Of a stretch of 64,000 nt of DNA, positions 50,752 to 54,449 are shown piece after piece. Location: the NCBI GenBank assembly GCA_030526515.1, contig JAUNCQ010000001.1, positions 1 through 64,000 of the forward strand, given 5' to 3'. Below the pieces are notes generated by a model. The model had not been told where the DNA came from. It saw nothing but the letters and a program-made list of their open reading frames with translations, and did not search any database. The stretch comes from Coriobacteriia bacterium (GTDB taxonomy: Bacteria; Actinomycetota; Coriobacteriia; Coriobacteriales; Eggerthellaceae). The position numbers and the translations under genes were made by a program. Position 1 is the stretch's first letter. Each line of letters starts with the position of its first letter.

Positions 50752-50790
50752 GGTCGGGCCTGAGAACTGACTGACATATGAGTAATCCGA

Positions 50791-50818
50791 GGAGGCTGGG
50801 TGCGCTGCGCCCGGCCTC
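50791..50818 (+). promoter_or_regulatory. Hairpin between secA and prfB
   Basis: GAGGAGGC and GCCTCCTC pair around a GC-rich loop, 20 bases before the prfB ATG. No T run follows, so it is more likely a processing or translational control structure than a terminator. Confidence 0.4.
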
Positions 50819-50837
50819 CTCCGACCATGAGGTAACG

Positions 50838-51944
50838 ATGAGCGAGCGAGACCTGAAGACCATCGACGAGCTGGCGGAGCGCGTCAAGGACGCCCACGCC
50901 TTCCTGCATATTGACCAGAAGACCATTCGCCTGGCCGACCTGGATCGCGAGTGCGCCGCCCCGGGGTTCTGGGACGACGCCGCCCATGCCACTGCCGTGT
51001 CCAAGGACGCCTCTATCCTGCGCGACGTCATTGCCCAGTACGACCGTGCCGTGGGCCTGCTCGACGACGCCCGCGCCGCGCTGGAGCTGGCGGGGGAGGA
51101 CCCGGACTTCGCCGAGGAGGCGGAGGCCGAGGCGGCCGAGCTGCTGGATGCGCTGGAGCCGCTGCTGGACGAGCTGGAGATCTCCAGCTGGTTCACGGGT
51201 GAGTTCGACGAAGGCGACGCCATCGTGTCCATCAACCCCGGCCAGGGCGGCCTGGAGGCCCAGGACTGGGCGGAGATGCTGTTCAAGATGCTGACCCGCT
51301 ACTGCGAGTCCAAGGGCTGGAAGGTCCACGTGCTGGAGACCGTGGCGGGCGAGGGCATAGGCCTGGACCGTGCCAGCTTCCAGGTGGAGGGCCACAACGC
51401 CTATGGCATGCTCCGCAGCGAAAACGGCGTGCATCGCCTGGTGCGCATCAGCCCCACCGACCTGAAGGGCCGTCGCCAGACCACCTTCGGCGCCGTGGAG
51501 GTGCTGCCCGTGCTGCCGGACACCGTGGAGGTTGACCTGGACCCCAACGACATCCGCGTGGACGTGTATCGCTCCAGCGGCCCCGGCGGCCAGTGCGTCA
51601 ACACCACCGACAGCGCCGTGCGGCTGACCCACCTGCCCACCGGCATCGTGGTTACCTGCCAGAACCAGAAGTCCCAGCTGCAGAACAAGGACGCCGCCAT
51701 GCGCGTGCTGCGCGCCCGCCTGTACGAGCTGGAGGAAAAGAAGCGCGCCGCCCAGGTGGACGAGCTCCGCGGCGACCAGATGGCCAACTCCTTCGGCAGC
51801 CAGATCCGCAACTACGTGCTGTATCCGTACCAGATGGTCAAGGACGTTCGCAGCGGCGTGGAGACCAGCAACGTGGACGCTGTCCTGGGCGGTGACCTGG
51901 AGCAGTTCGTCATCGGCTACCACAAGTGGCACGTGTCCCAGTAG
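50838..51944 (+). CDS. prfB: Peptide chain release factor 2
   Basis: Recognises UGA and UAA stops. The 368-residue protein has the catalytic GGQ at 250-252 ([10 protein letters not shown]). The stop-recognition tripeptide, SPF in most RF2, reads SPT at 205-207 ([12 protein letters not shown]). No +1 programmed frameshift is needed: the frame is open from the ATG at 50838 (after GAGGT), whereas most bacterial prfB genes have an in-frame UGA near codon 25. The in-frame ATG at 50778 lies ahead of a hairpin and is less likely as start. Confidence 0.93.
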
Positions 51945-52010
51945 CGCGCTAGCCGCGCCCGCGGCGGCGCGCGGCGCAGGCCGCGACGCCGACCTTGCGT
52001 TCGGACTCGA

Positions 52011-52038
52011 CGGGCGCCCGGGTTTTCCCGGGCGCCCG
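52011..52038 (+). terminator. Terminator of prfB
   Basis: Perfect arms CGGGCGCCCGGG and CCCGGGCGCCCG enclose a TTTT loop. The tail is TTCTGCTTT. Confidence 0.85.
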
Positions 52039-52094
52039 TTCTGCTTTCGGGCGTCGCTCGTTCGCGGGTTCGTTCCGGCTGTCGGCTCCCGTAA

Positions 52095-52508
52095 TGTGCG
52101 AACGATTCGTGGTCGTTCACGATTTGGGGTCCTGCAATGTGGGAACGGAATTTCGTTCCCAAGATGAGGGCGGCCGGAGTGCGAATGCTTCTGGGGCGTT
52201 CGCACATGGGGGAGGGACAGTGTGCGCACGATTATCCGTGCACACAATGAGCGCGGCGATTATGGGAATGGATTTCGGGCCGAAAAAGCGTTCCCACAGT
52301 ATGCGCCGTCGAAGTGCGAATGACTTGGGAGGGAGAATCCGTTCGCACATTGGGGGTCCGGGCGGGTTTGGGCCACTTACCCCCGTTGTGCGAACGAGGT
52401 CGGCGTTCCCACAACGCGAGTGCTCGGAGTGCGAATGGATTTCGGGGCCTGATTTCGTGCGCACGGCGAGGGGCTGCGATGTGCGCACGACTTGGTCGGC
52501 CGCGTGCA
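52095..52508. repeat. Array of about nine short palindromic units
   Basis: Each unit has a left arm like TGTGCGAACG and a right arm like CGTTCGCACA. Left arms start at 52095, 52138, 52178, 52221, 52261, 52313, 52387, 52428 and 52480; right arms at 52114, 52154, 52197, 52237, 52289, 52340, 52404, 52456 and 52503. The first and last right arms are degenerate. The distance from a right arm to the next left arm is exactly 24 bases in 7 of 8 cases and 47 in the other, whereas left-to-right distance varies from 16 to 28. Arms of one unit usually change together (GTGGGAACG with CGTTCCCA; GTGCGCACG with CGTGCACAC), so the dyad is kept. The spacers are not repeats. Confidence 0.85.
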
Positions 52509-52650: not shown

Positions 52651-53472
52651 ATGGATCAATCCCAACTTCAATCGACGGCAGCCGAGATGCGCCGTGACAT
52701 CGTTCGAATGATCGCTGAGGCAGGTAGCGGACACCCCGGCGGGTCCCTGTCCTGCATCGATATCCTGACGGCACTGTACTTCGGTGACGTGCTCAACCAT
52801 GATCCCGCCGATCCCAAGAAGGCGGACCGCGACTACTTCTTCCTGGCCAAGGGCCATGCCGCGCCGGCGCTGTACGCCACGCTGGCCCATGCCGGCTACT
52901 TCCCGGTCGAGGAGCTCATGACCCTTCGCAAGCTGGGCACCCGCCTGCAGGGCCATCCGGACTCCAACCAGCTGCCGGGCGTCGAGGTTTCCACCGGCTC
53001 CCTGGGCCAGGGCCTGTCCATCGCCGCCGGCACCGCCTGCGGCCTGAAGCTGCAGGACCTGCCGGGCACCGTCTTCACCGTTCTGGGCGACGGCGAGTGC
53101 GAGGAGGGCCAGGTCTGGGAGGCGGCGATGTTCGCCGCCCACCGCAAGCTGGGCAACCTGGTGGCCATCGTGGACCACAACGGCCTTCAGATCGACGGCA
53201 ACATTACCGACGTGTGCAATCCGGAGGACTTCACCGCCAAGTTCGAGGCCTTCGGCTGGGACGTGACCACCGTTGACGGCCATGACATCCCCGCGCTGAT
53301 CAAGGTGCTGGGCGAAGCCAAGGCCGCAGGTGGCGAAAAGCCCCATGCCATCATCGCCGAGACCGTCAAGGGCAAGGGCGTCTCCTTCATGGAGAACCAG
53401 GCCGGCTGGCACGGCAAGGCACCGAACGCTGAGCAACTGGAAGCCGCTCTTTCCGAGCTGGCGGGCGAATAG
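52651..53472 (+). CDS. Transketolase, N-terminal subunit
   Basis: A 273-residue TPP-binding half of a split transketolase. Seen: GSGHPGGSLSCIDILTALYF near the start, GHAAPALYATLA, GSLGQGLSIA and GDGECEEGQVWEA with the TPP motif ending at DHNGLQ. The ATG follows GGGAGG. The C-terminal half is the next gene, 11 bases on. Split transketolases are common in Actinobacteria, Firmicutes and archaea. Role: non-oxidative pentose phosphate exchange of two-carbon units. Confidence 0.94.
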   Translation: MDQSQLQSTAAEMRRDIVRMIAEAGSGHPGGSLSCIDILTALYFGDVLNHDPADPKKADRDYFFLAKGHAAPALYATLAHAGYFPVEELMTLRKLGTRLQGHPDSNQLPGVEVSTGSLGQGLSIAAGTACGLKLQDLPGTVFTVLGDGECEEGQVWEAAMFAAHRKLGNLVAIVDHNGLQIDGNITDVCNPEDFTAKFEAFGWDVTTVDGHDIPALIKVLGEAKAAGGEKPHAIIAETVKGKGVSFMENQAGWHGKAPNAEQLEAALSELAGE

Positions 53473-53483
53473 GAGGATCCACC

Positions 53484-54449
53484 ATGGTAAAGCTTGCATC
53501 TGCTGAGGAAGCAGCCCAGAAGAAGGCAACCCGCGCCGCGTTCGGCGTGACCCTGGCCGAGCTGGCCCAGGAGGGTCTGCCCGTGGTGGCCGTCGACGCT
53601 GACCTGACCGGCTCCACCACCACCAAGAAATTTGCCGACGCCGGCTATGCCGACCGCCTGTTCAACGCCGGCATCGCCGAGCAGAACATGATCGACGTGG
53701 CCGCCGGCCTGAGCCTGACCGGCCAGATCGCCTTCACCGGCTCCTTTGCCGTGTTCGGCACCGGCCGTGCCTACGACCAGATCCGCAACACCGTGTGCTA
53801 CTCCAACCTGGACGTGAAGATCGCCCCCACCCATGCGGGCATCTCCGTTGGCCCGGACGGCGGCAGCCACCAGATGCTGGAGGACGTGTCCCTCATGCGC
53901 GGCCTGCCCAACATGCGCGTCCTGGTTCCGGCCGACTACCCGGCAGCCGTCGCCGCGCTGAAGCTGGCCGCCAAGACCCCGGGCCCGGTGTACGTGCGCA
54001 TGGGCCGTGCCTCCGTTCCGACCATCTACGCATCTGACGTGGAGCTGGAGCTGGGCAAGGCCTACGTGCTGCGTGAGGGCACTGACGTGACCATCGTCGC
54101 CAACGGCGTTGAGATCCGCGAGGCCCTGGCCGCCGCTGACATGCTGGCTGAAAAGGGCATCTCCGCCGAGGTTATCGACGCCTTCAGCGTGAAGCCCCTG
54201 GACGAGGACACCATCGTGGCCTCCGTCGCCAAGACCGGTCGTTGCGTGGTCGCCGAGGAGCACTCCATCTACGGTGGCCTGTGCTCCGCCGTGGCCGAGG
54301 TGCTGGCTCGCCGCAACCCCGCTCCTGTGGAGTTCGTGGCCGTTCAGGACCGCTTCGGCAAGTCCGGCGAGTTCGATGAGCTGCTGGAGTACTTCGGCCT
54401 GGACGCAGCGTCCATTGTTGATGCTGTGGAGAAGGTAGCCCAGCGATAG
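53484..54449 (+). CDS. Transketolase, C-terminal subunit
   Basis: The 321-residue partner of the gene above, with pyrimidine-binding and C-terminal domains. It shows VAVDADLTGSTTT, NAGIAEQNMIDVAAGLSL, the HAGISVGPDGGSHQ segment and VIDAFSVKPLDE. DXS and pyruvate dehydrogenase E1 beta share this fold, but the pairing with the N-terminal subunit makes transketolase the clear call. The ATG follows AGGAGG. Strong codon bias suggests high expression. Confidence 0.94.
   Translation: MVKLASAEEAAQKKATRAAFGVTLAELAQEGLPVVAVDADLTGSTTTKKFADAGYADRLFNAGIAEQNMIDVAAGLSLTGQIAFTGSFAVFGTGRAYDQIRNTVCYSNLDVKIAPTHAGISVGPDGGSHQMLEDVSLMRGLPNMRVLVPADYPAAVAALKLAAKTPGPVYVRMGRASVPTIYASDVELELGKAYVLREGTDVTIVANGVEIREALAAADMLAEKGISAEVIDAFSVKPLDEDTIVASVAKTGRCVVAEEHSIYGGLCSAVAEVLARRNPAPVEFVAVQDRFGKSGEFDELLEYFGLDAASIVDAVEKVAQR

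Follow-up and report, generated by a model that had tools for sequence, protein, structure and literature searches.

Organization of the array between prfB and the transketolase genes

The intergenic region between prfB and the transketolase genes in the window (the whole 64,000-nucleotide stretch of DNA analysed) carries a long run of palindromic arms, and the question raised by this locus is what kind of element it represents. Dispersed bacterial palindromes are usually short and loosely clustered, and they are often linked to RAYT transposases. The initial annotation, made from the sequence of the window, had described alternating left and right arms at 52095–52508 and offered three readings, namely a cooperative protein-binding array, a REP/BIME-like element and a tandem-hairpin RNA. 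The search for the array pattern that it proposed, carried out in the genome of the window and in its relatives, uncovered a dispersed family present in two genera.

The array is located on contig C33 of G000, an Eggerthellales-type draft genome of 2.42 Mb. Parsing with spacing rules recovered the alternation of left (L) and right (R) arms, and shifted the limits of the intergenic array to 52071–52489, with prfB upstream and the gene for the transketolase N subunit downstream. It is opened by a lone right half-site (R0) and closed by a lone left half-site (L9), and a degenerate last right arm, previously placed near 52499, falls outside the order and spacing rule (Table 1). The half-sites are 10 nt long, being of the TGTGCGAACG type (L) or the CGTTCGCACA type (R), and follow each other with the start-to-start distances R-24-L-19-R-24-L-16-R-24-L-19-R-24-L-16-R-24-L-28-R-24-L-27-R-47-L-17-R-24-L-28-R-24-L. 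As described before, the distance from a right arm to the next left arm is 24 except at one linker, which measures 47 in the array of the window. This longer gap had been explained by a lost half-site; instead, it holds a conserved stem-loop (GGGGGT...ACCCCC), and its length is 47–48 in every other copy. Sixteen of the 46 matches to GTGNGAACG in the window (at most one mismatch) lie inside the array, i.e., in 0.42 kb of the 64 kb, and the strict two-arm pattern was found 24 times in the G000 genome and not once in the control, in which the pattern was read backwards.

Table 1. Parts of the array and neighbouring features in the window (d, start-to-start distance between the two arms of a hairpin).
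Feature	Position	Strand	Remarks
prfB, peptide chain release factor 2, upstream neighbour	50778..51944	+	protein 90% identical in the same-genus genome, 68-74% in six family genomes
Perfect 13-bp stem-loop, terminator-like, between prfB and array	52010..52039	+	inverted repeat I7
R0, lone opening right half-site, degenerate, CGTTCCGGCT	52071..52080	-	24 before L1; opening R in every full copy
Hairpin H1	52095..52123; L 52095-52104, R 52114-52123	.	d=19
Hairpin H2	52138..52163; L 52138-52147, R 52154-52163	.	d=16
Hairpin H3	52178..52206; L 52178-52187, R 52197-52206	.	d=19
Hairpin H4	52221..52246; L 52221-52230, R 52237-52246	.	d=16
Hairpin H5	52261..52298; L 52261-52270, R 52289-52298	.	d=28; inner TTTCGGGCCGAAA
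Hairpin H6	52313..52349; L 52313-52322, R 52340-52349	.	d=27
Central stem-loop (47/48 linker), abuts R6 and L7	52350..52386; arms 52352-52357 / 52379-52384	.	in 19/19 aligned copies, two species
Hairpin H7	52387..52413; L 52387-52396, R 52404-52413	.	d=17
Hairpin H8	52428..52465; L 52428-52437, R 52456-52465	.	d=28; 17 in two other copies (-11 bp)
L9, lone closing left half-site, TGTGCGCACG	52480..52489	+	closing L in every full copy
Transketolase N-terminal subunit, downstream neighbour	52651..53472	+	C-terminal subunit at 53484; orthologues adjoin prfB in three other genomes

Copies of the array in the same genome

In total, at least ten arrays were detected in G000, comprising the copy in the window and those on contigs C14, C31, C34, C45, C46, C63, C77, C80, and C81. 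The element is approximately 420 bp long, non-coding, and composed of eighteen half-sites. Seven full copies (including that of the window) share an identical 18-part order with a central linker of 47–48, from which they depart only by single bases and by one 11-bp loss (C31). The array on C80 lacks one 40+43 block (83 bp), those on C34 and C45 are cut off by contig ends, and those on C14 and C46 do not stop at L9 but run on with the variant half-site GGTGAACG, following nearly the same 24/28 rules. Within these extensions (L005 652–790, and L009 on C46 beyond L9), the outer ends of the variant half-site GGTGAACG/CGTTCACC differ in a compensatory manner (CGG/CCG vs. CAG/CTG). Regarding gene context, C80 and C81 are flanked by convergent genes, C77 by divergent genes, and the array of the window and C46 by codirectional ones.

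Distribution among related genomes

The same-genus genome, Eggerthellales MAG SUG1186 (G001), contains 12 or more arrays built from the same half-site, with distances of nearly always 27 within and 24–25 between hairpins, and a central linker of 47–48. About nine further arrays in this genome belong to a variant type with TACGCGAACG/CGTTCGTGTA arms (L097–L104), and the same G.T wobble was left in most hairpins of this type. In a third type, represented by one array in G001, the half-sites are repeated directly every 41 bp, and neighbouring arms are unable to pair. On contig C182 of G001 (L099 2506–3012), 41-bp direct repeats are followed about 180 bp on by an inverted set, with inner GGGGTCC/GGACC hairpins.

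In a second genus, represented by G101, approximately 14 arrays are built from a related, nearly invariant 15-mer half-site, TGTGTGAACGACGAA, for which 63 exact and 18 one-mismatch copies (81 near-exact copies in all) were counted, compared to none in the control. Their layout is L24R39L64L117R64R39L24R, accompanied by shortened forms that keep the fixed distances 24/39/64/117.

A covariance model of the central part of the array, applied to 138 genomes of the family, detected arrays in G000, G001, and G101 and none in the 135 others. Likewise, when 397 genomes of the order were searched with the half-site pair pattern, only G001 and G101 yielded over two matches, the approximately 394 other genomes being without arrays. 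Single-hairpin matches in family f4 (G216, G228) and elsewhere proved, on reading, to be lone palindromes and not arrays. The sister MAG SUG1186 was the sole match in a pattern scan of the genome collection, no match was obtained on the viral contigs scanned for the array, and arrays of this kind are not described for Eggerthella relatives in the literature searched. Among the 397 genomes of the order, the arrays are confined to two genera of one gut-bacterial family.

Half of the arrays in G000 are located within about 1 kb of contig ends, and their true number is therefore probably higher. Arrays lie unusually often at or near contig ends in G000 (C14, C31, C34, C45, C63) and in G101 (C1, C10, C21, C69, C91, C92); short-read assembly is probably interrupted by them, which leads to undercounting.

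In another genus, a 46-bp perfect palindrome, CATAGTGCGAACGAATGTTTCACGTGAAACATTCGTTCGCACTATG, was observed on contig C1 of G096 near position 2041100 (L090, approximately 1575–1620). In it, the same GTGCGAACG arms flank a parS core, TGTTTCACGTGAAACA, an arrangement that is possibly due to chance or possibly a hint at the binder.

Conservation of half-sites, spacers and arm pairing

The consensus of the half-sites is GTGnGAAYG; within the 10-mer, G6 is invariant, A8 and G10 are nearly invariant, and position 5 is free. Between the seven full copies in G000, identity amounts to 79% for corresponding arms and 52% for spacers (about 50% for most copy pairs), and spacer lengths differ in only 48 of 357 comparisons. 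Non-corresponding arms taken from different copies reach 76% identity and are thus nearly as alike as corresponding ones, indicating that the arms are held to one consensus. In all 19 aligned copies of two species, the central 47–48 linker shows runs of G to the left and runs of C to the right.

The initial annotation had also claimed that the two arms of a unit change together. This covariation is real and only modest: the arms of a hairpin gave 574 Watson-Crick cells, compared to 540.6 ± 6.5 after shuffling, whereby the parser gives a small bonus for within-hairpin pairing, the copies are related, and this and the following comparisons do not represent strict probabilities. The example then put forward, GTGCGCACG with CGTGCACAC, contains a C.A mismatch. 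Across the linkers, from a right arm to the next left arm, no covariation was detected (610 vs. 607.3 ± 6.1). The free position 5 covaries in long-loop hairpins (16 of 25 vs. 8.1 expected) and not across the 14-nt linkers (22 of 70 vs. 23.0 expected). A purely double-stranded binding site needs no covariation at this position, and the result, which counts against the reading as a protein-binding array, is indicative of either palindrome-correcting mutation or a hairpin or cruciform state.

Helical phasing of the half-sites

Intervals between neighbouring half-sites of the same orientation amount to 40–43, 51–53, 63–65, and 74 bp in three species and several array types. They fit best to a period near 10.5 bp (mean cosine of 0.77; p of 0.003 under a cluster-level null), as determined by a test that covers four interval classes only and was devised post hoc, after the intervals had been seen. 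Changes in length are also near whole helical turns (11 bp in H8 and 83 bp in C80), the loop lengths in G000 are either 6–9 or 17–18 with none in between, and the sister species G001 has different spacer lengths, whole turns being kept.

In summary, the copies form a family with invariant order and spacing, half-sites conserved above the level of the spacers, and dispersal to non-orthologous gaps. Conserved half-sites, drifting spacers, lengths near whole turns, the 15-mer of G101, and direct-repeat arrays that are unable to pair point to a DNA-binding protein acting on one face of the helix. Of the three initial readings, the cooperative protein-binding array is accordingly the best supported. 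The array in the window would then be one copy of a lineage-restricted, non-coding, dispersed and phased DNA element bound by a sequence-specific protein, an interpretation that we consider to have an even chance of being correct. The putative protein would bind the half-sites as L-R dimers along one helix face, and each array may serve as a multivalent nucleoprotein hub that bends, loops, or condenses DNA at scattered intergenic places. New arrays would arise when the element is copied into other gaps.

Mobile element, RNA or mutational origin

The best-surviving alternative, possible and clearly less probable, is a non-autonomous, MITE-like mobile element without host function, whose half-sites bind a transposase encoded elsewhere and whose order and spacing are kept because this transposase needs them. 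Dispersal in unrelated intergenic gaps is consistent with such an origin, as is an empty orthologous site in G001, where the prfB-transketolase gap measures about 150 bp and carries no array; conversely, G001 has an array behind polA, where none is present in G000. Every full copy has its outermost half-sites in inverted orientation, in the manner of terminal inverted repeats, and arrays occur in all three gene-orientation contexts. In G101, the copies are sharply bounded by an inverted TGTGTG...CACACA pair, outside of which the flanks are unrelated. However, no target-site duplication was visible by eye in seven G101 copies, and no transposase was found among the array-flanking proteins examined. 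The genome-wide search, which addressed Y1/RAYT transposases (PF01797) only, showed these to be absent from G000 and G001 and present in three of five other family genomes searched. Moreover, copies that are old, as judged from their spacers, have conserved arms, unlike inert, decaying MITEs. Bacterial MITEs and REPINs (PMC3116915) resemble the arrays in being short, dispersed and non-coding, in having empty sites at orthologous positions and, in the second genus, inverted ends; they differ in that neither a target-site duplication nor, in the Y1 search and among the flanking proteins examined, an autonomous partner was seen here, the end motif has many internal copies, and the geometry is kept in old copies. 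That such copies retain both arms and geometry suggests, from conservation, that they have a use at their sites in addition to spreading.

A structured RNA of tandem hairpins (a terminator, an mRNA-stability element, or an sRNA) appears improbable. The array folds better than shuffled sequences on both strands (z of -4.9 and -6.2), as any palindrome-rich DNA does, and the hairpin arms covary as described above. G.U and A.C pairs are unevenly split in some arrays (1 to 10 in C81, 5 to 0 in C80), but these skews could not be tied to transcription, since several arrays are located between convergent or divergent genes. In total, G.U and A.C are equal, with 32 vs. 32 in G000 and 14 vs. 14 in G001, whereas G.U pairs should prevail on the strand of an RNA stem. 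Furthermore, the loops are not conserved, an Rfam scan of the region gave no match above the gathering score, copies reside among convergent, divergent, and codirectional genes alike, and conservation of stem identity exceeds that of pairing. The tandem-hairpin RNA of the initial annotation was therefore not upheld.

Assignment to a REP/BIME-type family (RAYT/IS200-type), in which short palindromes are clustered into mosaics, is very doubtful. The arrays share with REP clusters and BIMEs their dispersal as intergenic, lineage-restricted clusters of alternating inverted palindromes, and to this extent the earlier comparison holds. In contrast, the RAYT feature fails, as PF01797 is found in neither of the two genus genomes, and one fixed order of 18 half-sites per copy is set against variable mosaics. 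The sizes also disagree, with 10-bp stems and loops of 6–18 in the arrays compared to stems of 8–9 bp and loops of 4–5 in CGTC-REP (PMC3733652).

The least probable explanation, that arm pairing is kept not by selection but by mutation through template switching within quasi-palindromes, would account for the covariation at free position 5, as expected if one arm is copied onto the other, but it leaves the fixed spacing and the conserved motif unexplained, and covariation in hairpins with loops of 17–18 together with its absence across the 14-nt linkers speaks against a purely mutational cause.

With CRISPR, the arrays have partly palindromic repeats and regular spacing in common. They were rightly distinguished from it at the outset, since their repeats vary and alternate in orientation, and their spacers (6–18 and 14 nt) are homologous between arrays.

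Possible role in chromosome organization

For the protein-bound element favoured here, iteron- or centromere-like arrays (parS, parC, plasmid iterons) offer a parallel, as they likewise contain multiple conserved, helically phased half-sites with variable spacers. The present arrays differ from these in having at least ten dispersed chromosomal copies and alternately inverted half-sites, and their binder is so far putative. A further-reaching proposal, which we regard as rather unlikely, is that the arrays are docking stations of an undescribed chromosome-organising protein of a few Eggerthellaceae genera, with eighteen or more phased half-sites per locus; these would be comparable to a centromere or macrodomain system, spread by transposition and then selected.

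The significance of the family lies in the fact that, without a RAYT enzyme, its copies retain a single order of 18 parts spaced at nearly whole turns, with the intervening sequence drifting by half. It leads to a concrete prediction for gut bacteria whose chromosome organization has hardly been studied: a protein that recognizes GTGnGAAYG from one face of the helix would be expected to occupy ten or more scattered sites.
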